Origin: Ancylobacter moscoviensis
GTDB lineage: Bacteria; Pseudomonadota; Alphaproteobacteria; Rhizobiales; Xanthobacteraceae
Assembly (NCBI RefSeq): GCF_007559435.1
Contig: NZ_VMBP01000007.1
Location: forward strand, 1-64,000
Length of the DNA: 64,000 nt
Direction of reading: 5' to 3'
The notes beneath the pieces were generated by a model that saw only the letters and a list, made by a program, of their open reading frames with translations, was not told the origin of the DNA and made no database searches. Each line of letters opens with the position of its first letter. The first letter of the stretch is position 1. The position numbers and the translations under genes are program-made. This document shows positions 29,933-45,942 of the stretch, piece by piece.

Positions 29933-30598
29933 TCATCCGCGAGGCTCATCGGTCCGTGACCGGGCATTCAGCGGATTGTGCCGAACCAGTTCGTCGACCT
30001 GTTCCAGCGTGAGCAGCCGAGGCTGCCGGTCCTGCAGCAGGAAGAGCAGCTTTGCCGTCTCCTCGAGTTCCTCGGCTGCGTAGACCGCGCTTTCGAGATC
30101 CTTGCCGGCGACAACCGAACCGTGATTGGCCAGGAGGACGGCGGCGTGCCTTCCTTCCAGTTCCCGGATCATCTCGCCCATGGCCGGATCGCCCGGGCGT
30201 ACATAGGGAAGCAGCCGCACCTTCCCGACCCGCATCACCACATAGGGCGTCAGCGGCGCGATGCAGTTCTCCGGGTCGATATCGGGAAGGCAGGACAGGA
30301 CCGTTGCGTAAGTGGAATGCAGGTGCACCACCGCCCCGGTGGACGGCCGCGTCGCGTAGAAGGCCCGGTGCAGGAAGATCTCTTTCGAGGGGAGATCGCC
30401 GGACAGATGGCGTCCCTGGTGATCGAGCTTGCAGATGCGCTCTTCTTCAAGGAAGCCAAGGCATGCATTGGTTGGCGTGATCAGCAGCCCATCCTCGATC
30501 GCCACGCTGATATTGCCGGCTGAACCCACGGAATAGCCGCGCTCGAAGAGAGTGCGCGACAGGCGAACGAGGGATTGACGCGCCGCTTTCTCGCTCAT
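29933..30598 (-). CDS. otnC: Class II aldolase family, 3-oxo-tetronate 4-phosphate decarboxylase (OtnC-like)
   Basis: This is a 221-residue class II aldolase/adducin-fold protein. Metal-binding histidines are in VVHLHSTYAT and NHGSVV, and the phosphate site is SAGNISV. The start overlaps the kinase gene by four bases. In tetronate breakdown, OtnC removes CO2 from a 3-oxo-tetronate 4-phosphate to give dihydroxyacetone phosphate. The pairing with OtnK strongly supports this role. Confidence 0.85.
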   Translation of the reverse strand: MSEKAARQSLVRLSRTLFERGYSVGSAGNISVAIEDGLLITPTNACLGFLEEERICKLDHQGRHLSGDLPSKEIFLHRAFYATRPSTGAVVHLHSTYATVLSCLPDIDPENCIAPLTPYVVMRVGKVRLLPYVRPGDPAMGEMIRELEGRHAAVLLANHGSVVAGKDLESAVYAAEELEETAKLLFLLQDRQPRLLTLEQVDELVRHNPLNARSRTDEPRG

Positions 30599-31881
30599 CG
30601 TGCATCTGCTCCCGTGCCGGAGATCGCGTCGAGCGCCTTGGCGAAAAAGTCCTCGGCACCGAAATTGCCCGATTTGAGCGCCATGCCGAGCCCCGCTCCA
30701 GCCTCGCTCACCAGCACCGGGACGCCGGGATCGATCTCCGGGCCGATGCGGAAGGATGTGATGCCCAGCGCCGAAACCACGGCTCCCGAGGTCTCTCCGC
30801 CTCCCACGACGATGCGCCGGGTGCCGCTCTCGAAAAGCTCCTTCGCCGCCGAGGCAAACAGCGCATCGAGCGTATGGGCAACCGTTTCGCGTCCGTATTT
30901 TTTCTGCAGGGCGGCGACCTGGTCCGGGTCCGACGAGGAGTAGGCCAGCGGCGCGGTATCGCGATTGGCGCGGATGAACGCCACGATATCCTGCGCGGTG
31001 AGGCGTCCCTCCATCACCTGATCGACATCGATGGCAAATACCGGGTGGCTCGCGCGATGACGCTCGATCTGCGCGCGGGTCGCCCGTGAACAGCTGCCGA
31101 CGAGGATGGCCTCGGGGCCCCCGATTCCACGGACGTCGGGGGTGCCGCCATGCGCGGCTCCCCGGCGGATGAAGTTGCGCGGCAGGCCAAGGGCGATGCC
31201 CGAACCGCCCGTCAGCAGCCGAGCGTCCGCGCAGGCTTCGGCCAGGGCGAGAAGGTCGTCGTTGCGGATGGCATCGGCGATGACCAGCTGCTCGCCGCGC
31301 GCCGCCGCCGCGTCGAGCGCCGCACGCGTCGCCACGGTTCCGCGCTGGAGCGTGGGCCAGTCTATCAGCCCGACCGGCCCGGTGCCCTGCCGGGCCAGCC
31401 AGCGCCGCAGGTCGGGGTCGGTCATCGGATTGAGCGGGTGATGCTCCATGCCCGATTCATTGAGCAGCCGGTTCCCGACGAAGAGATGGCCCATGTAGAC
31501 GCTGCGCCCCGCATCCGGAAAGGCGGGGCAGGCGATCACGCCCCTCACATCCAGCCGTCGCGCCAGGGCCACGCCGACGGGGCCGATATTGCCCTCCGGC
31601 GTGGAATCGAATGTCGAGCAGTATTTGAAGACGATCTGCCGGCAGCCTTGCGCCAGCAGCCAGTCCAGCGCGGCGAGCGATTGCGCGACCGCTTCCGCCG
31701 CCGGAATGGAACGGCTCTTCAGCGAGATGACGCCGGCTTCGACATCCGCGGCCGCGGGCGCCGCCGGCACCCCGAGATACTGCACCGTGCGCAGGCCCCC
31801 TTCCGGGGCGATACCCTTGGCGATGGTGTTGGCGATGTCGCTCGCCCCGGTGAAATCATCCGCAATAACGCCCAGGAGCAT
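30595..31881 (-). CDS. otnK: 3-oxo-tetronate kinase (OtnK-like, DUF1537 family)
   Basis: This is a 428-residue four-carbon acid-sugar kinase. The substrate-binding domain opens with LLGVIADDFTGASDIANTIAKGG-like spacing and contains KYCSTFDSTPEGNIGPVG. The C-terminal nucleotide domain carries VVGGGETSGAVVSALG. It phosphorylates a 3-oxo-tetronate at C4 for OtnC. A strong GGAGGGAA precedes the start. The dehydrogenase (LtnD) and isomerase (OtnI) usual in such loci are not beside it. Confidence 0.9.
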   Translation of the reverse strand: MLLGVIADDFTGASDIANTIAKGIAPEGGLRTVQYLGVPAAPAAADVEAGVISLKSRSIPAAEAVAQSLAALDWLLAQGCRQIVFKYCSTFDSTPEGNIGPVGVALARRLDVRGVIACPAFPDAGRSVYMGHLFVGNRLLNESGMEHHPLNPMTDPDLRRWLARQGTGPVGLIDWPTLQRGTVATRAALDAAAARGEQLVIADAIRNDDLLALAEACADARLLTGGSGIALGLPRNFIRRGAAHGGTPDVRGIGGPEAILVGSCSRATRAQIERHRASHPVFAIDVDQVMEGRLTAQDIVAFIRANRDTAPLAYSSSDPDQVAALQKKYGRETVAHTLDALFASAAKELFESGTRRIVVGGGETSGAVVSALGITSFRIGPEIDPGVPVLVSEAGAGLGMALKSGNFGAEDFFAKALDAISGTGADAR

Positions 31882-31920: not shown

Positions 31921-32910
31921 TCAGCGATTCTGACGCGCGCGGCGGCGGCGCGCATATTCGGCCAGACCGACCGTCGCGATCAGCATCGTCCCGTTGAACA
32001 GGGGCTCGACGAAGAAAGGCGCGCCAAGCTGGCTGAGCCCGGTGACGGCGACGGCGAGGACGGCGACGGCGAGAAGCGTGCCTCCGACATTCGCGCGCCC
32101 CGGCCGCACCGAGGTGACGCCAAGGAGGGCGCCGGTGAAGGCGGGCAACAGCATCTCCTGTCCCACCGTGCTCTGTCCCACGAGAAGCTGCGCCTGCAGA
32201 ATAATGCCGGCGAAGGCGGCGATGACGCCGGACGCGGTAAAGGCGAGGGTCACGTAGAGGGGCGAATTGATGCCCATCAATACCGCCGCGCGCGGATTGT
32301 CGCCGATGATGTAGAGATACCGCCCCACGGGCAAATATTCGAAGGCGATCCAGAGCACGAGGGCAATGACCAGCACGTACAGGATCGCCACCGGAATTCC
32401 GATGCCCGGGAGCATGCCCGACAGAGCGACGAAGTCCGGGGGAAGGATGCCGATCACCTGCTGGCCGCCGGTGTACCACTGGTTCAGCCCCAGCAGCACC
32501 GTGCCCGAACCGAGTGTGGCGATGAAGGAACTGATGCCCGCACGGCTGACCAGCAGCCCATTGATGCAGCCGACCAGGGCCCCGCCGGCCAGGATGATCA
32601 GCGCGGCCACCTGCCAGGACAGCCCCTGCTGGGTCTGCAGCCCGTTCGCCAGAACCTGCGCGAAGCCGAGAACCGACGCCACCGACAGGTCGAAGTGATT
32701 GGCCGCCAGCGGGATCATCACGGCAAAGGCAAGCAGCGCGTAGATCGAGCGCGAGTTCAGCAGCGAATTGAAGGTGAAGCTGGTGAGGAACGTATCGCCC
32801 TTCAGCACGGAGAAGAGCAGAAACAGTGCCACGAGAAGGATGAGCAGCCCCCACGAGGACAGGGCGTGTTGCAGGCGGCTGCCGGAAGAATGCGCGACCA
32901 TGGAGGACAT
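31921..32910 (-). CDS. Sugar ABC transporter permease, RbsC-like
   Basis: This 329-residue inner-membrane protein has 8-10 predicted helices and the RbsC signatures NHFDLSVASVLGFAQVLANGL and FIATLGSGTVLLG. It is the last gene of the ribose-type importer, 9 nt after the ATPase stop. Start 32910 (MSSMVAHSS) is used; an in-frame ATG at 32901 is possible. It likely imports the acid sugar or a precursor fed to OtnK/OtnC. Confidence 0.92.
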   Translation of the reverse strand: MSSMVAHSSGSRLQHALSSWGLLILLVALFLLFSVLKGDTFLTSFTFNSLLNSRSIYALLAFAVMIPLAANHFDLSVASVLGFAQVLANGLQTQQGLSWQVAALIILAGGALVGCINGLLVSRAGISSFIATLGSGTVLLGLNQWYTGGQQVIGILPPDFVALSGMLPGIGIPVAILYVLVIALVLWIAFEYLPVGRYLYIIGDNPRAAVLMGINSPLYVTLAFTASGVIAAFAGIILQAQLLVGQSTVGQEMLLPAFTGALLGVTSVRPGRANVGGTLLAVAVLAVAVTGLSQLGAPFFVEPLFNGTMLIATVGLAEYARRRRARQNR

Positions 32911-32919
32911 GCGTGTTTC

Positions 32920-34473
32920 TCAGTGAGGATTCGAGCTCTGACTGGCGGCTAGTGCGGTAAGCGCGGGAACGGAGAGTTCCGCGCGCGGGACCTCGCGGGC
33001 GATCCGGCCTCGATTGAACACGAGCGCGCGGTGGGAGATTCCCGCCACTTCTTCCATGTCCGAAGAGATGAGCAGCACCGAGGTGCCCGCGTCGAGCGCC
33101 TTCTGGAACAGGGCATAGATCTCGGCCTTGGCGCCGACATCCACGCCGAGCGTCGGCTCCTCCAGCACGATCAGGCGCCGGTTGGCGACGAGCCAGCGCG
33201 CGACGATGATCTTCTGCTGGTTGCCACCGCTCAAATTGGCGATGACGGCCTCGCTATCGCGTGGACGCACCGAGAAGCGGTCAATCACGTCCCTTGTCCG
33301 CGCATGCTCCCGGGCCGGCATGACCGGTGCCCAGGGATGGCCGCCCGTCAGCAGGACGTCGGGGAAGAGGTTCTCGCGAACCGTCAGTCCGTTGGCGAGG
33401 CTTTCCTCGCGCCGCTTGCTGGAGACGAAGCCGATGCCGCGCCGCGCCGCATCGCAGGGCGTTTCGAGACGGAGAGGCTCGCCGTCGAGCCAAACCCGCC
33501 CGCCGCTGATCGCGAGATCGCCGAACAGGGCCCGCCCGATCGCCTCCTGCCCGGCCCCGCGCAGGCCGACGAGGCCGAGCACCTCCCCGGCTTGAAGCCG
33601 GAAGGAGACGGGTCCCGCCGAGCCGGCACGCAGATTCTCGACTTCGAGAACCGTCGCCCCGCTCTCGGCGACCGGCGTCACGAAGACTTCTTCGAGCGGA
33701 CGCCCGACGATACGGTGCACCAGCCCGGCCGCATCGAGTGCCGCGATCGGCTCCGAACAGACCCGCCGGCCGTTGCGCAGCACGGTAACGCGATCGGCGA
33801 TGCGGAAGACCTCGTCCAGGCGATGCGTGACGTAGAGCACCGCCACGCCTTCCTCACGCAAGCGCCGGACGCATTCGAGCAGCCTGGCGACGTCGCTTTC
33901 GGGCAGTGCCGCGGTGGGCTCGTCCAGCACGACGACATCGACATGCAGGGCGAGTGCGCGGGCGATCGCCACGATGGCCTTGTCCGCCGCCGTGAGGTCG
34001 CCCACCACCTGCCCGGGATCGATGTCGGAGCCGAGGACCCGCAGGGCCTCGACCGCCGCACGCCACGTGGCGCTCCAGTCGATCAATCCGAACCGCCAAT
34101 GGTACCCGGCGATGAGCGCCACGTTCTCCGCGACGGTCATCGTGTCGACGAGGCCGAGATCCTGATGGATGAAGGCGATGGGCAGGCGGCCGGCGGCGGG
34201 GCGCACGACCTGCCCATCCAGCCGGATCTCGCCGCCATCCGGTGCGTAGACACCGGCCAGCATCTTGATCAGGGTCGACTTGCCGGCGCCGTTCTCGCCG
34301 AGCAGCGCGTGGACTTCGCCCCGATGAAGATCGAGATCGACGTCATCCAGCGCCTGCGTGCCGAGGAAGCGCTTGCTCCAGCCGCGTATCGCGACCAGCG
34401 GTGCGTCGGCGGCGCCGGCATCGCCACGAGCCTCCCCGGCATGGGCGCCAATGGAAGCCGCGGAGGCCGTCAC
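32920..34473 (-). CDS. Sugar ABC transporter ATP-binding protein, RbsA-like
   Basis: This is a 517-residue double ATPase. Domain 1 has Walker A GENGAGKST and Walker B VVVLDEPTAALPE. Domain 2 has the degenerate first site GLRGAGQEA, a signature LSGGNQQK and LIVLEEPTLGVD, which is normal for RbsA/MglA proteins. It starts with GTG at 34473, overlapping the binding-protein stop by four bases (GTGA). Upstream sequence in frame is antisense to the binding-protein gene and is not counted. Confidence 0.93.
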   Translation of the reverse strand: MTASAASIGAHAGEARGDAGAADAPLVAIRGWSKRFLGTQALDDVDLDLHRGEVHALLGENGAGKSTLIKMLAGVYAPDGGEIRLDGQVVRPAAGRLPIAFIHQDLGLVDTMTVAENVALIAGYHWRFGLIDWSATWRAAVEALRVLGSDIDPGQVVGDLTAADKAIVAIARALALHVDVVVLDEPTAALPESDVARLLECVRRLREEGVAVLYVTHRLDEVFRIADRVTVLRNGRRVCSEPIAALDAAGLVHRIVGRPLEEVFVTPVAESGATVLEVENLRAGSAGPVSFRLQAGEVLGLVGLRGAGQEAIGRALFGDLAISGGRVWLDGEPLRLETPCDAARRGIGFVSSKRREESLANGLTVRENLFPDVLLTGGHPWAPVMPAREHARTRDVIDRFSVRPRDSEAVIANLSGGNQQKIIVARWLVANRRLIVLEEPTLGVDVGAKAEIYALFQKALDAGTSVLLISSDMEEVAGISHRALVFNRGRIAREVPRAELSVPALTALAASQSSNPH

Positions 34474-35573
34474 TTCACGCCCCAGAGCTCGAGATAGCGT
34501 TCGGCGAAGTTGTTGTCCGGGACATAGGTGTTGTCCTTGCCGCCCTGGACGTCGACGTTGGTCGCTGTCACGAGGTAAGGCGGCGGAACGGTTCCGCTCG
34601 GCTCCTGCTTGTGGAAGGCGCGGTTGAGCTCGTCGACAGCCTGGTAGCCGAGATAGGCGTTCGGCTCGGCGACGGTGACGGTCTGGTATTCCTTGCCGCC
34701 GCGAATGCGCGAATAGGCGGACTTCGTTCCGTCCGAGCCGACCAGGAAGACTTTCGAGGGATCGACGCCCCCCGCCTTCAGCGCGGGAACCTGGAAGTCC
34801 AGCGTGTAGTCGGCGATGGCGGTGATGTAGAGCGGCAAGCCGTATTTCTGCACCCAGGACGCGACGAGCTGCGGCTGCCGCTGCGCCGCCTCGACCAGCG
34901 GCGTGTTGGAGAATTCGACCACCTTGCAATCCGGGCATTGCTCCAGCCGGTCCTTGACCGCGGTGGCCTTGACCATGGCGATGGCGTATTCACCGCTGGT
35001 CGTCACCACGACATTGGCCTTGCCGCCGGAATGGGCGATCACCCAGTCCGCCTGCGCCCTGCCAATGGAAGCCGGGTCTTGCTGGATATTGGTGAAAAGC
35101 CCCAGTTCCGGCTGCGGTCCCGCCGTCCCGGCGGCATGGATGCCGACCACCGGGATGCCCAGTTCGTTGGCCTGCCTGATGGGGGCTGCGAGGCTCCGGG
35201 CATCCGCGCTCGTCACGATGCCGTCGACCTTGAGCGAAATCGCCTGGTTCATCCCGGAGAGCCAGCTCACCGGGCTGCCGCGACCGTCGATGATGGTGAC
35301 CTTCCAGCCGGCTTTGCCGGCGGCCTCAGCCAAGGCCTGGCCCCACTGGCGCTCGCCGTCGTTCTGCTCGTTGGCCGAGAGATACGCGATGTGCTTGCCA
35401 GACTCGACCTTCGGCGCCGATGCCGGGCCGGTCCAGGCGGTTTTGGTCGCGCCAAGGCGTTCCACATTGGCCTTCGCGTCGGCGACGATGTCGTCGGCAT
35501 GCGCCGACGCCGCGCCGCATGCGATCACCGAAGCAAGCATCAGCGCGGGAAGAGCGGGCGATGAACGTTTCAT
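34470..35573 (-). CDS. Sugar ABC transporter substrate-binding protein
   Basis: This is a 367-residue periplasmic protein of the ribose/galactose-binding type (PBP1 fold). The signal peptide MKRSSPALPALMLASVIACGAASAHA is cut after AHA. The start at 35573 has GGAGGAAAC. Family landmarks include VDGIVTSADARSLAAPIRQANELGIPVVGIHA. It is divergent from the lactonase-like amidohydrolase, and a GntR-type motif lies in the shared promoter gap. Confidence 0.92.
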   Translation of the reverse strand: MKRSSPALPALMLASVIACGAASAHADDIVADAKANVERLGATKTAWTGPASAPKVESGKHIAYLSANEQNDGERQWGQALAEAAGKAGWKVTIIDGRGSPVSWLSGMNQAISLKVDGIVTSADARSLAAPIRQANELGIPVVGIHAAGTAGPQPELGLFTNIQQDPASIGRAQADWVIAHSGGKANVVVTTSGEYAIAMVKATAVKDRLEQCPDCKVVEFSNTPLVEAAQRQPQLVASWVQKYGLPLYITAIADYTLDFQVPALKAGGVDPSKVFLVGSDGTKSAYSRIRGGKEYQTVTVAEPNAYLGYQAVDELNRAFHKQEPSGTVPPPYLVTATNVDVQGGKDNTYVPDNNFAERYLELWGVK

Positions 35574-35733
35574 GTTTCCTCCAAGCGATCGTTCCGGACG
35601 CGCCTCCCGCAACGGGATTGCGCCTTCTGTTCTTTTGATCTGGCGGCCACGGCGGAACGTTTTCGCCGGGCCTCGCCCACGTCGGAAGCGGCTCGTCTGA
35701 CGCCGCGCCAGCGCATGGCTATGCTAGCGATAG

Positions 35734-35746
35734 CTGGTATGATAGG
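35734..35746. promoter_or_regulatory. Candidate GntR operator, copy 1
   Basis: CTGGTATGATAGG matches the locus motif TTGGTATGAAAGG at 11 of 13 positions. It lies 34 nt before the lactonase-like start and 161 nt before the divergent sugar-binding protein start. Confidence 0.55.
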
Positions 35747-35779
35747 TCAATAGTCTCGAAGCTGGTCACGGAGATAACG

Positions 35780-36688
35780 ATGGCGGTATGCCGCCACCCC
35801 GCCATGCGTCCCGACCAACTCATGAGGAAGACGCCCTTGCCTGACTTTCCGATCATCGACAGCCATGTGCATCTCTATGACGTCGACCGGCTGAGCTACA
35901 GCTGGCTGGCCTCTCGTCCCGCCATCAATCACTCGCATTTCGTGCCGGACTATCTGGCGCAGTGCGGCGAGACGCGGGTGGAGAAGCTCGTCTTCGCCGA
36001 GGTGTGGATCGATGCGCATCTGAACCTTCAGGAGGCGGAGTGGGTGAGCGAGCAGGCGGCGCGCTATCCCGTGATCCAGGGGATGATCGCCGCCGCGCCG
36101 CTGGAAAGGGGCGCCGGCGTCGAGGCGGACCTCGACGTCCTCGCCCATCATCCCACGCTCCGGGCCATCCGCCGGATTACCGAGCTCGAGGCGGACCCGG
36201 CCTATTGTCTGCGGCCCGATTTCATCGAGGGGGTACGACGGCTCGGCGAGCGCGGACTGGTCTGCGACATCTGCGCCTTCCACTTCCAGCTATCCGCCGT
36301 CGTCGAGCTGGTGCGCCTGTGTCCCGGCACGACATTCGTGCTCGACCATATCGGCAAGCCCGGCATCCGCGCCGGGTTGCTGGATCCCTGGCGGGACGAC
36401 ATGGCCCGGCTCGCGCGCCTGCCGAACGTGGCGGTGAAGATTTCCGGCGTCGTTACCGAAGCCGACCATGGTGCCTGGACGCGGCAGCAGCTGCGGCCGT
36501 ATCTCGACCACACCATTGCCAGCTTCGGCTTCGATCGGGTGCTCTACGGCAGTGACTGGCCGGTGGTGAACCTTGCCAGCAGCCATGCCGAATGGCTCGA
36601 TATTGTCGACGAGATCGTCTCCGGCTGCTCGCCCGAGGAGCGGCGCAAGCTCTATCGGGACAATGCCCTGCGCCTCTACCGTCTGTGA
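35780..36688 (+). CDS. Amidohydrolase, L-fuconolactonase-like
   Basis: This is a 302-residue metal-dependent TIM-barrel hydrolase (COG3618 type). The HxH motif is DSHVHLYD, and GSDWPVVN near the end holds the metal-binding aspartate. Such enzymes open sugar lactones, so it fits with the acid-sugar kinase and decarboxylase next door. The start at 35780 has GGAG; later in-frame ATGs lack one. A GntR-type motif lies in its promoter. It is convergent with gntR, six bases apart. Confidence 0.85.
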   Translation: MAVCRHPAMRPDQLMRKTPLPDFPIIDSHVHLYDVDRLSYSWLASRPAINHSHFVPDYLAQCGETRVEKLVFAEVWIDAHLNLQEAEWVSEQAARYPVIQGMIAAAPLERGAGVEADLDVLAHHPTLRAIRRITELEADPAYCLRPDFIEGVRRLGERGLVCDICAFHFQLSAVVELVRLCPGTTFVLDHIGKPGIRAGLLDPWRDDMARLARLPNVAVKISGVVTEADHGAWTRQQLRPYLDHTIASFGFDRVLYGSDWPVVNLASSHAEWLDIVDEIVSGCSPEERRKLYRDNALRLYRL

Positions 36689-36694
36689 GCGGAA

Positions 36695-37411
36695 TCAGCG
36701 CCGGGCGCTCTGCCAGTACAGCGACGCGACCGAGTCCAGATGCTCATGCATGGCCGATTCGGCCGCGTCGGGATCATGCGCGGCGATCGCTTCATAGATG
36801 CGCTCATGGAAGGCGAAGGCCTTCTGCTTGGCGCGGGCGACCCGCAGCGAGACATTGCGCTGTTCCGACAGCCACTGCACCACTGCCTGATGCACACCAT
36901 TGAACAGAGGATTGTTGGCGACGAGCACAATCTCGTAGTGAAAGGCGACATCGGACTTCTCGAAGGCGTCCATGTCCGACAGGTCGCGCTTGTTCCGCGC
37001 GAGCGCCCCGCCGATCCGGGCAATGTCGGCCTCCGTCGCCTCGCGGGCGGCATGGCGCGCGAGTGCCATTTCAAGATGCATGCGCGCATTCTGGAAATGA
37101 CGCACACCTTCCGGATTGGCGATGTAGGATCGCACGGAGGTCGACAATTCCTGAATGAAATGATGGGCGTCGGGGCGGGCAACGCGAGCGCGCTCACCAT
37201 TGGTGATCGACACCAGCCCGGCTTTCTGCAGCGATAGAAGAGCCTCGCGGATCGCCGGCCGGCCAACCTGGAACTGCTCCATGAGGTCGCGTTCGGAGGG
37301 CAGCATGTCGCCTTCCGCCAGCGTGCCGTCGAGCATCATCTGCTGCAGCCTCTGGGCAACGTCCTCGTAGATGCGGCGCCTGCGGATCGGTTGGATATCG
37401 AGCACGGTCAC
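36695..37411 (-). CDS. GntR-family regulator (FCD domain, NanR-like)
   Basis: This is a 238-residue regulator. The N-terminal winged helix (about residues 12-78) carries LPSERDLMEQFQVGRPAIREALLSLQKAGLV. The C-terminal FCD effector domain (about 100-230) has metal-type histidines in FHYEIVLVANN and HLDSV. It starts with GTG at 37411 after AGAGGA. NanR-type proteins bind GGTATA-like repeats, and a GGTAT motif lies only 8-20 nt upstream of the start, so it is probably self-regulated. Five such motifs define its likely regulon. Confidence 0.92.
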   Translation of the reverse strand: MTVLDIQPIRRRRIYEDVAQRLQQMMLDGTLAEGDMLPSERDLMEQFQVGRPAIREALLSLQKAGLVSITNGERARVARPDAHHFIQELSTSVRSYIANPEGVRHFQNARMHLEMALARHAAREATEADIARIGGALARNKRDLSDMDAFEKSDVAFHYEIVLVANNPLFNGVHQAVVQWLSEQRNVSLRVARAKQKAFAFHERIYEAIAAHDPDAAESAMHEHLDSVASLYWQSARR

Positions 37412-37418
37412 TCCTCTT

Positions 37419-37431
37419 TCGGTATAAAAGG
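37419..37431. promoter_or_regulatory. Candidate GntR operator, copy 2 (autoregulatory)
   Basis: TCGGTATAAAAGG matches the locus motif at 11 of 13 positions and begins 8 nt upstream of the gntR start. CCTCTT immediately before it gives an outer CCT...AGG inverted arm. Confidence 0.55.
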
Positions 37432-37559
37432 ATCACCGAAGCAGTGAGCGCTGTCAACCGCAGCCGACTCATGGAAAAGACCCATAAATCAACTGATTGC
37501 CTTCACTGAGCCCGTAGGGCGCGTGGGGGTGATTGACGTTGCTTCACCCCTATGTTTAA

Positions 37560-37572
37560 CCTTTCATACCAT
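37560..37572. promoter_or_regulatory. Candidate GntR operator, copy 3
   Basis: CCTTTCATACCAT is the reverse complement of the locus motif at 12 of 13 positions. It ends 55 nt before the FMN oxidase start, within its expected promoter region. The sequence continues TAGG, so CCT and AGG flank it. Confidence 0.6.
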
Positions 37573-37627
37573 TAGGTGCTTTGTAGGGCCTCGCGACCTT
37601 GGGGGAGCGGAGGCCAGGATTCCCGCC

Positions 37628-38785
37628 ATGCCCCGCCTCGACTTCGCCGCGTCGATCGCCGATCTGCGCCTTCTCGCTCGCGCCCGTCTGCCACGGTCGG
37701 TCTTCGAATTCATCGACGGCGGTGCCGCGGATGAGTACACGCTGAAGGCGAACAGCGACGATTTCGGCGCCTTTCGATTGATGCCCGATGTGGGAGTGGA
37801 CGTCGCCCTGCGGTCAAGCGCGACGACCGTGGTCGGCAAGCCCTCCCGCCTGCCGCTGGTCCTCGCGCCGACCGGCCTTGCCGGTCTTTACTGGCCGAAG
37901 GGCGAGATCGCCGCGGCCCGTAGCGCCGCTCGCGCGGGCATTTCCTTCTGCCTGTCGACCAATTCGGTCGCGTCGATGGAAGAGGTCGCCGATGCCGTGC
38001 CGGAGGTGGATCGCTGGTTCCAGCTCTACTTCCTCAAGGATCCCGACCTCATGCGCTCCATGGTGGAGCGGGCAAGGGCCAGCGGCTACCGCGTCCTGTG
38101 CATTACGCTCGACCTCGCGGTGCAGGGGCGGCGCGATCGCGATATCCGCAATGCCTTCACCGTGCCGCTCAAGCCACGCCTGACCACGGTGCTGGAGGTG
38201 CTGGCCCGACCGGCCTGGCTTGCCGGCTTCCTGCGCGCGCCCATGCGCTTCGGCAATTTCGCGGCCGCCGCGCCGCAGGGTGGCTTCAGCAGCATCGCCC
38301 AGCACATTGCCAAACTCTGCGATGCGTCGGCGGACTGGGACACCGTTGCGCGCTTGATCGAGCTCTGGGATGGGCCGGTCGTGGTGAAGGGCCTGCTCAA
38401 CCCGCGCGACGCCGAGCGCGCCGTCGCGCTGGGCGTCGACGCGATCATCGTCTCGAACCACGGCGGACGCCAGCTCGACCGCGTGCCTTCCGCCATCGCC
38501 GCACTGCCCGCCATTGCCGCAGCCGTGGCGGGACGGACGCAGATCATCCTCGATGGCGGCGTGCGACGCGGCACCGACATCGCCATTGCCCGCTGCCTCG
38601 GTGCCGATGCCTGCATGATCGGCCGCCCCTTCCTGTGGGGCCTCGCCGCCGCCGGCGAGGCGGGCGTCACGCGAGCGCTCGATATATTGCGCGACGAGCT
38701 GGACATCGCGATGGCCCTGCTGGGCGTCACGTCCATGGACGCCTTTTCCGCCGGACATCTGTGGCGCAACGAGACCGCGCGCTGA
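37628..38785 (+). CDS. FMN-dependent alpha-hydroxy acid oxidase / L-lactate dehydrogenase-like
   Basis: This is a 385-residue FMN TIM-barrel enzyme. It begins with the family's LARARLPRSVFEFIDGGAADEYTL and has LAPTGLAGLYWPKGE. The catalytic histidine and substrate arginine are in VSNHGGRQLDRVPS, and FMN phosphate binding is ILDGGVRRGTDI. It oxidises an L-2-hydroxy acid to the 2-oxo acid. The start at 37628 follows GGAGG. Its GntR motif ties it to the acid-sugar genes; it may supply the oxo acid in place of an NAD-dependent dehydrogenase. Confidence 0.9.
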   Translation: MPRLDFAASIADLRLLARARLPRSVFEFIDGGAADEYTLKANSDDFGAFRLMPDVGVDVALRSSATTVVGKPSRLPLVLAPTGLAGLYWPKGEIAAARSAARAGISFCLSTNSVASMEEVADAVPEVDRWFQLYFLKDPDLMRSMVERARASGYRVLCITLDLAVQGRRDRDIRNAFTVPLKPRLTTVLEVLARPAWLAGFLRAPMRFGNFAAAAPQGGFSSIAQHIAKLCDASADWDTVARLIELWDGPVVVKGLLNPRDAERAVALGVDAIIVSNHGGRQLDRVPSAIAALPAIAAAVAGRTQIILDGGVRRGTDIAIARCLGADACMIGRPFLWGLAAAGEAGVTRALDILRDELDIAMALLGVTSMDAFSAGHLWRNETAR

Positions 38786-38790
38786 GGCGC

Positions 38791-38820
38791 GGCCTTTCCC
38801 AAGGCGGCCTTTCCCAAGGC
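38791..38820 (+). repeat. 15-bp perfect tandem repeat
   Basis: GGCCTTTCCCAAGGC occurs twice back to back directly after the FMN oxidase stop, followed by a partial third start (GGCATT). Each unit can form GCCTT/AAGGC pairing. It may arise from slippage and is too short to be a CRISPR. Confidence 0.7.
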
Positions 38821-38838
38821 GGCATTGCCCATGCAGGA

Positions 38839-38862
38839 ACGGCCGCCCTTGCGGGCGGCCGT
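38839..38862. terminator. Hairpin between convergent genes
   Basis: ACGGCCGCCC (38839-38848) and GGGCGGCCGT (38853-38862) form a perfect 10-bp stem around TTGC. It lies between the convergent FMN oxidase and aldolase genes. No long T-run follows on either strand, so termination is likely but not canonical. Confidence 0.55.
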
Positions 38863-38900
38863 CGCAACCTATCCGAGATAGTGCGGCCCCGGCGGCGCTC

Positions 38901-39716
38901 TCACCCCTTCGGCCGCCCCTGCTTGCGAAGCCCCTTGAGCATCTCCACGCCGTCGGACAGCGCCTTCTGGAACAGCAGGTGATCGAGGCCGTAGGCGATG
39001 ATGTCGAAGCCATGCTTCCAATAGGCTTCCGCCCATACGGAATCGAGCGCCATGAAGCCGGCGGGCTTGCCATTGCGATGAGCGGCGGCCACCACCTTCT
39101 CGATTCCCCTGAGATAGGCGGGGTGATCGAACTCGGCCGGGATCCCCATCGAGTTGGTCAGGTCGAAATGCCCGACCCAGAGAACGTCGACCCCCTCGAC
39201 CGCCGCGATCTCGTCGACATTGTCGAGGCCGGCCGCCGTTTCGATCTGGCAGATGACGAGGTTGCGCTCGCGGCTGGCCTTCATCTTCTCCGCGGGATGG
39301 CCGCCGCGATAATCGTCATGGGCGATGCCGAAAGCGGCGCCGCGGCGACCGTGCGGCGGATAATTGGCGCTCGACACGATCCGCTCGGCCTGCTCGCGCG
39401 TCTCGACCATGGGGACCATCACGCCATGGGCGCCCATGTCGAAGGCGCGCGCGACGAAATGGTATTCCCCCGCCGGCACCCGCACGAGAGGCGCCACGCC
39501 CAGCCCGCGACACCCCGCGAACTGGACCTTCATCGTCTCGAAGCCGGCTCCCGAATGCTCCATGTCGTAGAGGATGAAATCCGAGCCGGTCGCGGCCACG
39601 ATGGCGGGCAGGCCCGGCGAGAAGAACTCGATCACCATGGGGCCGAACAGCCCGCCCTCATCTGCGAGCTTCTTCCTCAGGCCGGACGCGATGTCACGCG
39701 ACGATGTCTTGGACAT
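38901..39716 (-). CDS. HpcH/HpaI family aldolase
   Basis: This is a 271-residue class II pyruvate-type aldolase. Landmarks are the catalytic His in YDMEHSG, the substrate Arg in VRVP, YPPHGRRGAAFGIAHDDY, and the metal-binding QIETAAGLDNVDEIAAVEGVDVLWVGHFDLTNSMG. Such enzymes split 2-keto-3-deoxy acids (for example 5-keto-4-deoxyglucarate) into pyruvate and an aldehyde. The start at 39716 has GAGGGAG. It is 10 nt downstream of the small monooxygenase gene and likely cotranscribed with it. Confidence 0.88.
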   Translation of the reverse strand: MSKTSSRDIASGLRKKLADEGGLFGPMVIEFFSPGLPAIVAATGSDFILYDMEHSGAGFETMKVQFAGCRGLGVAPLVRVPAGEYHFVARAFDMGAHGVMVPMVETREQAERIVSSANYPPHGRRGAAFGIAHDDYRGGHPAEKMKASRERNLVICQIETAAGLDNVDEIAAVEGVDVLWVGHFDLTNSMGIPAEFDHPAYLRGIEKVVAAAHRNGKPAGFMALDSVWAEAYWKHGFDIIAYGLDHLLFQKALSDGVEMLKGLRKQGRPKG

Positions 39717-39726
39717 GTCTCCCTCT

Positions 39727-40041
39727 TCACTTGCTGTTCTGGTGGCAGGCATAGCTGCGGACCGTCTTGTGCCTCACGAGAGGCGCCGTAAGCGCGTCGA
39801 ATTCGATGAAATGCGGGCTCGCCAGGTGGTCGCGAAACGCCGCCTCGCTATCGTAAATCTCGTAGAGCGCGACCGCACCCTCTCCCTCGACCGGGACGAG
39901 CACGTCGAAGCGCTGGCAGCCGGTTTCGCTGCGCACGGATTCGGCCGCGTTTTCCTTCACCAGCATCATGAACCGGCCGAGATTCTCAGCCGCCACATCG
40001 AATTCGACCCAGATCACATAAGACAAGGCGACACTCCCCAC
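39727..40041 (-). CDS. Antibiotic biosynthesis monooxygenase (ABM) domain protein
   Basis: This 104-residue protein is a ferredoxin-like fold of the ABM/YgiN type: YVIWVEFDVAAENLGRFMMLVKENAAESVRSETGCQRFDVLVP, then ALYEIYDSEAAFRDHLASPHF. Known relatives include quinol monooxygenases and the epimerase-like LsrG. It leads a two-gene operon with the aldolase, and a GntR-type motif lies 78 nt upstream. In sugar-acid loci such proteins may act as mutarotase-like helpers; that is only a guess. Confidence 0.82.
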   Translation of the reverse strand: MGSVALSYVIWVEFDVAAENLGRFMMLVKENAAESVRSETGCQRFDVLVPVEGEGAVALYEIYDSEAAFRDHLASPHFIEFDALTAPLVRHKTVRSYACHQNSK

Positions 40042-40118
40042 GCAAACCCGTCGACAGGCCGCCGCGCTCTCCGGCCAGAGTGCCGGGAAGCGGCCAACCG
40101 GATGGCGGGTGCCCTCTG

Positions 40119-40131
40119 TTGGTATGAAAGG
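40119..40131. promoter_or_regulatory. Candidate GntR operator, copy 4
   Basis: TTGGTATGAAAGG, an exact consensus match, is 78 nt upstream of the ABM monooxygenase start on the minus strand. CCTCTG directly before it again gives an outer CCT...AGG arm. Confidence 0.6.
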
Positions 40132-40337
40132 ATGAACATGATTTTGAAGACTGTCAAATGATCCATGCCGTCGACCACGGAGCGTCGCGGGGGCGGAGAC
40201 GGGCGGCCCGGGAGGGCGCCCTTTCGTATTAGTGAGTTGTTTTCATTGAAAATTATTCCAATCCAGGAATAGGGCGGTGGATGTCTTTGCCTTCCGCGAC
40301 CAATCACGTCTTGACGACACGTAAGATAAACAATTAG

Positions 40338-40350
40338 CCTTTCATACCAA
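40338..40350. promoter_or_regulatory. Candidate GntR operator, copy 5
   Basis: CCTTTCATACCAA is the exact reverse complement of copy 4. It lies 46 nt upstream of the TRAP binding-protein start. TAAGG follows, giving a CCTT...AAGG inverted repeat. Confidence 0.6.
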
Positions 40351-40395: not shown

Positions 40396-41388
40396 ATGTC
40401 CTTACGCCATCTCGCCTTGGCCGGCTGCCTGGTCGCCAGCCTTGTCACCCCGGCGGCCGCTCAGCAGGTGCGCGAGCTGCGCCTGGGTTCGCCCTGGCCG
40501 TCCGCCAGCACCGTTCACGCCGCACTGCCGGTGTTTGCCGAGGCGGTGGAGCGCGAGAGCAAGGGGGCGATCAAGGTGCGCGTCTATCCCGACAGCCAGC
40601 TCGGGGACATCCAGTCGCTCATCAACGGCGTCCAGCTCGGGACGGTCGACATGACCTACCTGGCCATCGGCAATGCCGGCGTGCTCAAGGGCGGTGCCCC
40701 GCTCAACGTGGCTTACGTACCCTACCTGTTCAAAAGCAAGGAGGGAGCGGAGAAGGTCGTCAACAGCCCGGTATTCCAGGAACTGTACGACAATCTGGCA
40801 AAGGAATCGGGCGTCCGGATCTTTGCCGTTTACGGGGCGCGCTCGCCTCGTGCGGTGCAGAACCGCGTCCGGCCGGTCACCAAGCCGGAGGACCTGAAGG
40901 GCCTGAAGATCCGCATCCCTCCGATCGAGGGCATTCGGATCGCCTTCGAGAAGATGGGCGCGAAGCCGGTCGTGCTGGGGCTGGGAGATACGTACAACGC
41001 GATCGAGCGCGGCCAGGTCGACGGGCACGAGAACGGCATCGACGCCGCCGTGGGCTACAAATGGTACGAAGTCGCCAAGTTCTTCACGCCGACCGACCAC
41101 ATCTATGAGACCGGCGCCTTCTACATCAACGAGAAGCTCTGGCAGTCCCTGACGAAGGAAGAGCAGGAGATCTTCATCAAGGCCGCCAAGGAAGGCGGCG
41201 CCGCCATGACAAAGGCGGGCGAGAAGGTCGACGCGGAGGGCGCGAAGATATTCGCCGAGAATGGCGTCCAGGTCTCCCAGCCCGACAAGGCTGCGTTCGA
41301 GGCGGCTCTCACCGACGTCTACAAGCGCCTCGAAGGCCGCGTCTGGCCCGAGGGTCTCGTCGAGCGCATCCGCGCCATTCCCCAGTAA
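40396..41388 (+). CDS. TRAP transporter substrate-binding protein (DctP-like), second system
   Basis: This is a 330-residue periplasmic protein with signal peptide MSLRHLALAGCLVASLVTPAAA. The carboxylate-binding arginine is in LKGLKIRIPP, and VDGHENGI is typical of the family. A good GGAGG-type site (GGGAGGAA) precedes the start. A GntR-type motif lies 46 nt upstream, so uptake is controlled with the acid-sugar genes. A strong terminator follows before the permease genes. Confidence 0.95.
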   Translation: MSLRHLALAGCLVASLVTPAAAQQVRELRLGSPWPSASTVHAALPVFAEAVERESKGAIKVRVYPDSQLGDIQSLINGVQLGTVDMTYLAIGNAGVLKGGAPLNVAYVPYLFKSKEGAEKVVNSPVFQELYDNLAKESGVRIFAVYGARSPRAVQNRVRPVTKPEDLKGLKIRIPPIEGIRIAFEKMGAKPVVLGLGDTYNAIERGQVDGHENGIDAAVGYKWYEVAKFFTPTDHIYETGAFYINEKLWQSLTKEEQEIFIKAAKEGGAAMTKAGEKVDAEGAKIFAENGVQVSQPDKAAFEAALTDVYKRLEGRVWPEGLVERIRAIPQ

Positions 41389-41406
41389 GTCCTCCTCCTG
41401 AGACTT

Positions 41407-41437
41407 CGGGTGCCGGATCGCCGGCACCCGCTTTTTT
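41407..41437 (+). terminator. Intra-operon terminator after dctP
   Basis: CGGGTGCCGG (41407-41416) pairs perfectly with CCGGCACCCG (41421-41430) around ATCG, followed by CTTTTTT. It sits between the TRAP binding-protein gene and the permease genes, so most transcripts should stop here and only read-through makes the permeases. Confidence 0.9.
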
Positions 41438-41457
41438 CCGGCTACGAGGTTGTGTCC

Positions 41458-41985
41458 ATGTCTTTCGACGATGTCGAACGCATCGTGCTGAAGGTCTCGG
41501 GCTATGTCGCCCGAATCGTCGATCTGTTGATTGCCGTGGTCGTGGGGGCGTTGCTCGTTCTCGTCACGTCCCAGTTCATCGACCGCAATTATGTGACCCT
41601 CTGGTACGACTCACCCGAAGAATATGTGAAGATAGGCCTCGTCTGGCTGTGTTTCCTCGGCTTCGTGCGCGCATCGGCGACAGGTGAGACGATCCGTATC
41701 ACTTTCGCTCAGGACATGCTGTCGCCGGGGATACAGCGAATTATCGCCATTCTCCTGGATGTCCTGCTCCTTGTGGTCGTGGCTTTCCTGGCCTGGAAGA
41801 GCTGGATCATGATCCAGACGGCCCGTATGCAGATCATTCTGGGAACCGACCTTACTCTGGACGTTCCGGTCTTCGGAATGCTCGCGGGCTTTGGCCTCCT
41901 CGTCCCTCTCGTCTTCTGGCGTCTGGTTCGCGCGCTGGCCGGGCGGCCGCACATGCCTGACGCCCATCCGGTGATCGAGGACTGA
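41458..41985 (+). CDS. TRAP transporter small permease (DctQ-like), second system
   Basis: This is a 175-residue membrane protein with four predicted helices, including the typical FLGFVRASATGETIRITFAQD loop. The start at 41458 has GAGG; the frame stays open further upstream but runs into the terminator hairpin. It links the binding protein to the large permease eight bases downstream. Confidence 0.92.
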   Translation: MSFDDVERIVLKVSGYVARIVDLLIAVVVGALLVLVTSQFIDRNYVTLWYDSPEEYVKIGLVWLCFLGFVRASATGETIRITFAQDMLSPGIQRIIAILLDVLLLVVVAFLAWKSWIMIQTARMQIILGTDLTLDVPVFGMLAGFGLLVPLVFWRLVRALAGRPHMPDAHPVIED

Positions 41986-41993
41986 GCGGCATC

Positions 41994-43268
41994 ATGAATC
42001 TCCTCTTCCTTTCCTTTGTCGGCCTGCTCCTTCTCGGCATGGAGGTCGGCTTCGCGATGATCGTCGCGGCGTGGCTCGGCCTGGAATTCAAGGCCGGTCC
42101 GGCGGTCGACGCCATCATGCTCCCGACGTCGATGCTGGGCGGCATCAGCCTTTATGCGCTGGTGCAGATTCCCCTGTTCATCCTCGCCGGCGAGGTCATG
42201 AACAGGGGTGGCATCACCCGCCGCCTCGTCGAGGTCTCCTCGGCGTGGATCGGCCAGCGCCGGGGGAGCCTCGGGCACGTCGGCATCCTGTCGAACCTCA
42301 TGCTCTCGGGCATTTCGGGCTCCGCCGTGGCGGATGCCGTCGCAACCGGCAAGGCACTGATTCCCGAGATGCGCGCCAAGGGATATGGCGCCGGCTATTC
42401 GGGCGCCGTCATCGCCTCCGGTGCATTGCTTGGCCCGATCATCCCGCCGTCGATCCCGATGGTCGTCTACGCGCAGATCGCCAATGTCTCGGTCGCCAAG
42501 ATGTTCCTGGCCGGCGTTCTGCCGGGCCTTCTTCTGGCGTCGGGGTTCCTCGTCATCTGCAGCCTCATCGGCAAGCGTCGCGGCCTGCCGCGCGAGCCGG
42601 CGATGAACTGGCGGGCGAAAGGCAAGGTGACGGTGCGGGCGGTCTGGGCGCTGCTCATGCCGATCATCATTCTGGTCGGCATCCGCATGGGCCTGATGAC
42701 CGATACGGAGATCGCGGCCATCGCGGTGATCTACGCGCTGCTCGTGGGGTTCTTCGTCTATCGCACGATGAAACTGCGCGATCTGCCGGCCATCCTGATG
42801 TCGGCCGGTCGTTCGAGCGCGGTGATCCTCTTCCTCCTGGCCGCCGCGGCGCCCTTCTCCTGGCTCGTGGCGGAAAGCCAGATCAGCGAACATCTCGTCG
42901 AGATGATCCGTCAGATCACCGACAACCCGCACCTCATCCTGCTGATCATCAACGTCCTGCTGCTTCTGGTCGGGCTGGTCCTGGAGCCGCTGCCGGCCAT
43001 GGTGATCTTCCTGCCCGCCCTCCTGCCGCTCGCCGCGGAACTCGGCATCGACCCGATTCATTTCGGCGCGGTCGTCGTCGTCAATCTGATGATCGGGCTG
43101 CTGCATCCCCCGATCGGCCTGCTCCTGTTCGTCGTGTGCAGCATCGACCGGCTGCCCTTCATGGCGGTGGCGCGCGAGGTGCTTCCCTTCCTCGCCTGGT
43201 CGATCATGGTGCTGGTCCTGATAATCTTCTTCCCGCCGCTCACCGTGTGGTTGGGACAGGGCCTCTGA
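41994..43268 (+). CDS. TRAP transporter large permease (DctM-like), second system
   Basis: This is a 424-residue membrane protein with about 12 helices and the family stretches LSGISGSAVADAVATGKALIP and GPIIPPSIPMVVYA. It is the sodium-driven transport subunit for an acid, likely a sugar acid or a product handled by the OtnK/OtnC and aldolase genes. A hairpin with internal pairing lies about 50 nt after its stop. Confidence 0.95.
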   Translation: MNLLFLSFVGLLLLGMEVGFAMIVAAWLGLEFKAGPAVDAIMLPTSMLGGISLYALVQIPLFILAGEVMNRGGITRRLVEVSSAWIGQRRGSLGHVGILSNLMLSGISGSAVADAVATGKALIPEMRAKGYGAGYSGAVIASGALLGPIIPPSIPMVVYAQIANVSVAKMFLAGVLPGLLLASGFLVICSLIGKRRGLPREPAMNWRAKGKVTVRAVWALLMPIIILVGIRMGLMTDTEIAAIAVIYALLVGFFVYRTMKLRDLPAILMSAGRSSAVILFLLAAAAPFSWLVAESQISEHLVEMIRQITDNPHLILLIINVLLLLVGLVLEPLPAMVIFLPALLPLAAELGIDPIHFGAVVVVNLMIGLLHPPIGLLLFVVCSIDRLPFMAVAREVLPFLAWSIMVLVLIIFFPPLTVWLGQGL

Positions 43269-43357: not shown

Positions 43358-43789
43358 TTTCCCATGCCGCCGGGCGGAAAGATAAAGGCGGGCTGTCCGT
43401 TCAATCTCCCGATCCGCCACGCGCCGGCTGGTCCGCCGAACCTCGCCGCGGGCCTATGTCCCATGAAAGTCCAGCCCCTCCCGTGGTGGCCTGCATATAA
43501 TATATAGCCGGCTACAAGAGTCCGGCTTGGGCGGGTCGAGGGTTCTCGGCTTCGTGGCAGAGGCAAGCCGCCGGGATGGCCGAAGGCGGCATGGCGCAAA
43601 GCCGGCCCGGACCTGGCCGAAGAGCCCGGTCAGGCGGCAACGGCCTTGTTCCTGCGGAAAGCCGATTTCAGCCTTCACGGACGGCGGAACCCGCATGCCA
43701 TGCCCGCCCGCTCATTCATCCTGATTGGTTGACTAGTCAGGTTGGTGGCGTTAGGACCTTTGGCAGGTTGGACAACCGGCGAGGGTGCA
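43358..43789. other. Intergenic region before the hydantoinase genes
   Basis: This 432-nt stretch has no gene I can support. It holds a short AT-rich island (CATATAATATATAG at 43494-43507) with a perfect TATAAT, but I find no matching -35 box. A small stem (AGCCGG/CCGGCT, 43506-43527) follows at once. The palindrome TGACTAGTCA lies at 43730-43739, about 50 nt before hyuA. The hyuA promoter is therefore somewhere near the right end. Confidence 0.5.
43729..43740. promoter_or_regulatory. Candidate HutC-type operator upstream of hyuA
   Basis: TTGACTAGTCAG contains the perfect 10-bp palindrome TGACTAGTCA. TTGACTAG recurs upstream of the GntR gene at 50563 and its divergent ABC operon, which suggests the same regulator. 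Confidence 0.6.
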
Positions 43790-45931: not shown

Positions 45932-45942
45932 GGGAGGCGAGA

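Follow-up and report, generated by a model that had tools for sequence, protein, structure and literature searches.

Five direct-repeat sites and a predicted NanR-like regulon for hydroxy- or sugar-acid use in Ancylobacter moscoviensis

Introduction

The closest described counterpart of the system examined here is NanR of Escherichia coli, a GntR/FCD regulator whose nanATEK operator consists of three GGTATA repeats; the E. coli nanA promoter sequence that we fetched carries GGTATAACAGGTATAAAGGTATA and reads GGTATA-ACA-GGTATA-AA-GGTATA. The available part of its description (PMC8012715) proposes R59, R69, R73 and N89 as base-contacting residues and reports that a 32-residue N-terminal extension enables cooperative DNA binding. 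Here, we describe a locus with related motifs in Ancylobacter moscoviensis (Alphaproteobacteria, Xanthobacteraceae), located in the first 64,000 nucleotides of contig NZ_VMBP01000007.1 (this whole 64 kb stretch is referred to as the window). Within 4.6 kb of it, five copies of a GGTAT-type motif are found near gntR, which encodes a GntR/FCD protein (36695–37411), and near genes for importers and catabolic enzymes. Judging from the sequence, these sites are very probably the operators of that protein, which we predict to be a NanR-type repressor of this locus.

Two other described systems invite comparison. The palindromic operators of the FadR subfamily (ExuR, UxuR and LldR), as far as the sources available to us extend, have a GT/AC half-site alphabet in common with the sites treated here, and extra half-sites 7–12 nt from such palindromes are described in the available part of PMC4494728. 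The window sites are unlike these operators in that they contain no palindrome, with ACC kept at site 2 only. VdtR, which regulates erythronate/threonate genes in Brucella according to the available part of PMC10580937, is linked to the use of four-carbon acid sugars and is a member of a different regulator family (DeoR). A literature search found no publication on the present regulon, a weak negative, as it covered open-licence papers only.

Five motif copies and their specificity

An initial annotation of this DNA had placed five copies of a 13-bp motif at 35734, 37419, 37560, 40119 and 40338, two of them exact and in inverse orientation. All five were recovered, with 2, 2, 1, 0 and 0 mismatches to TTGGTATGAAAGG, respectively, and the two exact copies (40119 and 40338) are indeed inverted relative to each other. 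Delimited as 15-bp units, the sites are as follows.

35736..35750, + strand: site 1, GGTATGATAGGTCAA, overlapping the -35 of a leftward promoter-like pair, TTGACC (35750–35745) and TAGCAT (35726–35721)
37421..37435, + strand: site 2, GGTATAAAAGGATCA, then CC, at the promoter of gntR itself, with TTGACA at 37457–37452 (minus strand)
37556..37570, - strand: site 3, GGTATGAAAGGTTAA, at the promoter of a flavin mononucleotide (FMN)-dependent dehydrogenase gene, with TTGACG at 37533–37538
40121..40135, + strand: site 4, GGTATGAAAGGATGA, at the promoter of the genes for a small ABM-domain protein and an HpcH-type aldolase (ABM-HpcH), with TTGACA at 40157–40152 (minus strand)
40334..40348, - strand: site 5, GGTATGAAAGGCTAA, at the promoter of a TRAP importer, with TTGACG at 40311–40316

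All five motifs proved real and specific. Allowing up to three mismatches to TTGGTATGAAAGG, the window holds nine matches, of which the four besides the five sites all have three; a count of nine was reached in 1 of 100 shuffles of the window (mean 3.8). Across the genome (4,179,879 bases in 13 contigs), the exact pattern GGTATRAHAGG occurs at five places, all of them inside this 4.6 kb (reversed-pattern control, two), and the motif is thus not as common elsewhere as it is here, its exact form being absent from the rest of the genome. Looser searches were uninformative: GGTATGAAAGG with at most one mismatch occurs at 13 places genome-wide, five at the locus, compared with 15 for the reversed control, which is about chance frequency, and GGTATRAWAGG with at most two mismatches is no commoner in the window (14 matches) than in its shuffles (mean 11.5). 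Loose counts were therefore rejected as evidence, and the signal lies in the exact form and its clustering.

A weight matrix was also built from 17 sites of relatives (seven distinct 15-mers), with no window site included; because those sites had been selected by the pattern, the matrix owes nothing to the window but does depend on the motif. It placed the five sites at ranks 1–5 in the window with scores of 21.9–25.9 bits, followed by a next score of 14.7; the best score across 20 simulated 64 kb sequences was 18.2 bits.

Orthologues of the regulator were sought in 296 genomes of the family, which yielded nine besides the window's own, all in the same genus; a tenth was found in Methylobrevis (75% identical). 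In all ten distinct orthologues (72–82% identical), an exact copy of GGTATGAAAGG precedes gntR at no more than about 80 bp from the aligned start, and in none of them is the regulator kept with the motif missing from its promoter.

Shape of the putative operators and promoter geometry

At the level of sequence, the conserved unit is a 15-bp direct repeat in 9-bp phase, GGTATGAAA-GGNTNA (GGTATRAHA-GGNTNA). When the sites were examined for GGTATA direct repeats of fixed phase, period 9 was present, with GGTATR as the first repeat and a degenerate GGNTNA as the second; A is found at position 15 in 5/5 window sites and in 6/7 distinct sites of relatives. This unit replaces the 13-mer of the initial annotation, and the outer CCT/AGG arms also described there were rejected as an inverted repeat: CCT is absent at site 1, its distance from GGTAT varies between 3 and 5 bases at the remaining sites, and it is not present in several orthologues, while the AGG of the claimed arm is the beginning of the second repeat.

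In the direction of transcription, TTGAC stands 20, 21, 20 and 21 bases ahead of the operator at sites 2, 3, 4 and 5, respectively, and 18–21 bp ahead of it in 12/12 sites of the same type in relatives; the background frequency of TTGAC in the window is 0.00044 per base and strand. The -10 region at sites 2–5 falls on the degenerate second repeat, an overlap that may explain its degeneracy. Each divergent gap (gntR/FMN dehydrogenase and ABM/DctP) holds one site at distance 20 from TTGAC and one at distance 21, suggesting that a single ancestral control region was duplicated or shuffled, with the change presumably in that direction. Site 1 is placed before the genes for an ABC importer, OtnK and OtnC, and about 30–90 bp ahead of the possible starts of a lactonase-like gene on the + strand. 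It overlaps a leftward promoter-like TTGACC-18-TAGCAT (35750–35721), and TTGACC lies across the operator start in 5/5 relatives' sites of this type (L049–L053). A near-identical promoter-operator (TTGACCTATCATACC...TAGCAT) is found before a TctC-type transporter at L050:9538–9548 and before the ABC importer at window 35720–35750.

The predicted placement of the operators, on the -10 region (sites 2–5) or the -35 (site 1), is the geometry of a repressor. It is also that of a local catabolic repressor of the FCD type, with sites at the regulator's own and adjacent catabolic promoters overlapping the promoter core, an overlap read from the TTGAC spacing, the -10 being weak. The same regulator could act at the same sites as an activator or dual regulator instead of a simple repressor: FCD regulators are capable of both activation and repression, E. 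coli NanR is annotated as a dual regulator and the weak -10 hexamers allow for a helper. However, we consider this unlikely, as operators at the -10 region (sites 2–5) and at the -35 and spacer (site 1) occupy positions that would block polymerase.

Genes of the locus and their arrangement in relatives

The genes of the locus were assigned as follows.

29933..31881, - strand: OtnK 3-oxo-tetronate kinase (30595–31881) and OtnC 3-oxo-tetronate 4-phosphate decarboxylase (29933–30598), both above the NCBIfam curated cut-off
31921..35573, - strand: ribose-type ABC importer; binding protein (34470–35573) by domain, ATPase (about 32920–34473) and permease (31921–32910) by reading of open reading frames (ORFs)
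35837..36688, + strand: Amidohydrolase 2 family protein, lactonase-like, by domain/NCBIfam search; a start further upstream, at 35780, is possible
36695..37411, - strand: gntR, GntR/FCD regulator of the NanR subfamily; a GTG start at 37405, after AGGAG, looks likelier
37628..38785, + strand: FMN-dependent 2-hydroxy-acid dehydrogenase, lactate dehydrogenase-like, by domain/NCBIfam search; start set 3' of the operator
38901..39719, - strand: HpcH/HpaI-type aldolase, by domain/NCBIfam search
39727..40041, - strand: ABM-domain small protein, weakly LsrG-like, by domain/NCBIfam search
40396..43268, + strand: TRAP importer; DctP (40396–41388) and DctQ (41458–41985) by domain, DctM (41994–43268) by ORF reading and position

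Together, the FMN dehydrogenase, HpcH, ABM, OtnK/OtnC and lactonase genes suggest a hydroxy or sugar acid as substrate, at no finer resolution. Directly past the FMN dehydrogenase gene is a perfect tandem duplication of a 15-mer (38789–38818). Hydantoinase/oxoprolinase A and B genes (43787–47646) lie 3' of the TRAP genes and have no exact copy of the motif; a HyuB-like gene is also present near gntR in one distant relative (L092).

The proposal that the motif set links otherwise unrelated-looking genes into one regulon is largely borne out, as the gene families hold together across rearrangement in Methylobrevis. TRAP and FMN dehydrogenase genes are retained at the gntR locus in 2/10 orthologues, those of genome G284 and Methylobrevis, where DctPQM-FMN dehydrogenase diverges from gntR-ABM-HpcH and two exact sites lie in the intergenic region between them; in Methylobrevis, OtnK-OtnC come next. 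The same gene families are split over several transcription units in the window, with five sites. A site of the site 1 type (GGTATGAYAGGTCAA) is found past the gntR 3' end in 5/9 same-genus orthologues; at L050, the site 1-type locus that was searched for domains, the next gene encodes a TctC receptor and not an ABC importer as in the window. Furthermore, at three loci that have OtnK/OtnC genes together with a related ABC importer (L061–L063), exact GGTATGACAGGTCGA / GGTATGACAGG stands no more than about 250 bp ahead of the gene for the binding protein.

For the lactonase, which had been counted within the regulon, we found no support besides its position: no relative (E up to 1e-20) was found in 18 related loci. 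It was rejected as a conserved member and is the weakest member of the regulon. Co-inheritance of the TRAP importer with the regulator was set aside without a statistic, since DctP matches (E up to 1e-100) occur in just 2/397 genomes of the order, the window's own included. The window genome has a single match to the regulator (E up to 1e-30). A second NanR-like gene (44–45% identity) is present in eight same-genus relatives, with GGTATGACAGG about 1 kb away (L040–L043 included).

Distant loci and plasmids

Besides G000, G022 and G388, ten of the 397 genomes of the order contributed 11 loci at E up to 1e-60. GGTATNNHAGGTATACC (at most one mismatch) is found at the gntR 5' end in 9/11 of these distant loci, as GGTATRAYAGGTATACC-like sites before gntR-ABM-HpcH, and ABM and/or HpcH homologues are present in 10/11 (2.4–3.7 kb examined). 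In the longer site of distant members, an inner palindrome, GGTATACC, is combined with the 9-bp direct repeat. Exact GGTATRAHAGG was found at 0/6 HpcH homologues without such a regulator in the 3.7–3.8 kb examined, one of which (L120) matches the 17-mer with three mismatches. The HpcH homologues at L113 and L120 each contain one in-frame TAG.

The plasmid loci of Mesorhizobium ciceri and Bradyrhizobium comprise gntR, then a small gene, ABM-type or hypothetical, and one for an aldolase/citrate lyase, and their site ends 1–2 bases ahead of the annotated gntR start. No ABM or HpcH homologue was detected by tblastn at 1e-6 in the Sinorhizobium medicae and Halomonas loci. Several regulators of this wider family carry the NanR name in public annotation. 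A Cupriavidus regulator with 54% identity to that of the window has three GGTCTRAWAGG copies on its 5' side (L104:5709–5885) and an ABM gene about 3.5 kb off. A 43%-identical regulator at L031:2180–2330 is preceded by GGTATAATGACTACAT and GGTATGATCACTATAT, which may represent a further variant of the family's operator.

The fixed spacing of the sites from TTGAC would also suit a shared promoter element or the sites of another transcription factor, and the second NanR-like gene in 8/9 relatives, with its nearby GGTATGACAGG, means that related factors may share sites there. We regard this as very unlikely, because the sites track the regulator, being present in 10/10 orthologues and 9/11 distant loci with no exact match in 6/6 HpcH loci that lack it, and because half-site and phase agree with those of a solved relative having the same base-reading residues.

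The regulator and its likeness to NanR

The window regulator contains a GntR winged helix (PF00392, 1.6e-18) and an FCD domain (PF07729, 2.4e-20). Its top NCBIfam model is NanR (NF003011), which at 259.1 bits falls just short of the 260 cut-off, and LldR comes second at 87; the closest solved homologue is E. coli NanR (3.6e-50). The similarity to E. coli NanR extends to the half-site GGTAT, the period of 9 between the first two repeats, the carboxylate arginines, the base-reading residues R59, R69, R73 and N89 (all four conserved in the alignment, as R41, R51, R55 and N71) and the zinc ligands D172, H176, H222 and H244 (all identical). The two differ in several respects. The second repeat is degenerate and the third absent in the window sites, the N-terminal arm is largely missing (residue 6 aligns to NanR residue 24, making it about 18 residues shorter) and the genetic setting is one of acid-sugar genes. 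Among the ten non-zinc contacts to N-acetylneuraminic acid (Neu5Ac) taken from the available part of PMC8012715, R128, R203, F168 and L245 are conserved and N165, I200, H214, N215, S218 and Q221 are changed. A search for NanE (PF04131), with NanA and NanK not searched, found it in 0/10 genomes, the window's own included (control positive in 8/14).

In a midpoint-rooted tree of 35 sequences, the window regulator clusters with its orthologues (0.996) and then with regulators adjoining OtnK/OtnC (0.928); E. coli NanR groups with an S. medicae protein (0.984) in a clade apart. The earlier description of the regulator as NanR-like stands as regards its GntR and FCD domains, its best model, although just under the cut-off, and its NanR-type repeat, although with a degenerate second half, but NanR-like does not mean sialic acid here. 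A true NanR sialic-acid regulon, in whose favour one could cite the NanR model (0.9 bits short of cut-off) and the best solved relative, was rejected as extremely improbable given the NanE result, the six changed Neu5Ac contacts, the separate clade and scanned genes that are not nan genes.

Discussion

Overall, the regulon put forward in the initial annotation largely stands, with corrections to operator shape, promoter placement, the lactonase and the implied link to sialic acid. The sites, their specificity within the genome, their conservation, the spacing to TTGAC and the conserved residues were observed; from these we infer binding, repression, the nature of the inducer and the link between site 1 and OtnK. 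In the proposed mechanism, a regulator dimer would place one winged helix on GGTAT and the other on the degenerate GGNTNA 9 bp on, covering the -10 region and start point at sites 2–5 and the -35 and spacer at site 1. Without inducer, it would repress gntR itself, the FMN dehydrogenase, ABM-HpcH and the TRAP importer and, via site 1, the ABC importer-OtnK-OtnC genes. The inducer would be a carboxylated hydroxy or sugar acid, imported or made by the products of the locus and held in the FCD pocket by a zinc ion and two arginines, and its binding would release the repressor. The pathway probably takes up a hydroxy or sugar acid through the TRAP and ABC importers, oxidizes it with the FMN enzyme and passes it to the aldolase and the OtnK/OtnC pair.

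Several observations weigh against this reading. The -10 hexamers at sites 2–5 are poor (GATCCT, TAACCT, CATCCT and TAGCCT), a consensus promoter scanner called none of the four promoters there, and its one call, at site 1, is at about the shuffle level (mean 0.8) and proves nothing alone. The 17 relatives' sites behind the matrix reduce to 7 distinct 15-mers. In 8/9 same-genus orthologues, the surroundings of gntR yielded no FMN dehydrogenase or TRAP relative, and those genomes thus inform on the gntR site only, plus site 1 in five. In the nine same-genus relatives, GGTATRAHAGG has 36 exact matches. The gntR locus accounts for 15 of them, a further 8 lie about 1 kb from the second regulator of 44–45% identity (one each in eight genomes), and 13 are found elsewhere, compared with 15 for the reversed control. 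The last of these look like chance, and the eight may be operators of that second regulator. At L061–L063, the exact site is solely at the ABC importer and none is at gntR. Of the 11 distant loci, L095 and L102 have no site, although L095 has ABM/HpcH genes (L102 has neither). Cupriavidus L104, among five plasmid loci, has the GGTCT variant in place of GGTAT, S. medicae L108 has a one-mismatch GGTATAACAGC upstream of gntR and Halomonas L106 has merely a three-mismatch match, 4 kb from gntR.

With these points considered, the repressor assignment remains strongly favoured, and a broader proposal can be offered tentatively, at somewhat less than even odds. A family of NanR relatives may govern a sugar- or hydroxy-acid pathway encoded by gntR-ABM-HpcH, not sialic acid use, with operators ranging from a palindrome accompanied by an additional half-site (TGGTATRAYAGGTATACCA), as in distant members, to the decayed direct repeat of the window, whose second repeat would be fused with the -10. 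The window locus would then be a fragmented two-operator cluster, every new transcription unit having an operator to itself. The extra half-sites near FadR-subfamily palindromes, to the extent covered by the available part of PMC4494728, make such a route from palindrome to direct repeat plausible.

One predicted regulon thus joins the importers with a flavin dehydrogenase, an aldolase and an ABM protein, and the pathway becomes approachable through its regulator, as the inducer of GntR should indicate the substrate. Genes labelled NanR that adjoin ABM-HpcH are probably not sialic-acid regulators. The operator range within one family provides a testable series from palindromic to direct-repeat recognition and, if the broader proposal is true, the family would show how the odd direct-repeat operator of NanR could have arisen from the usual FadR-type palindrome.

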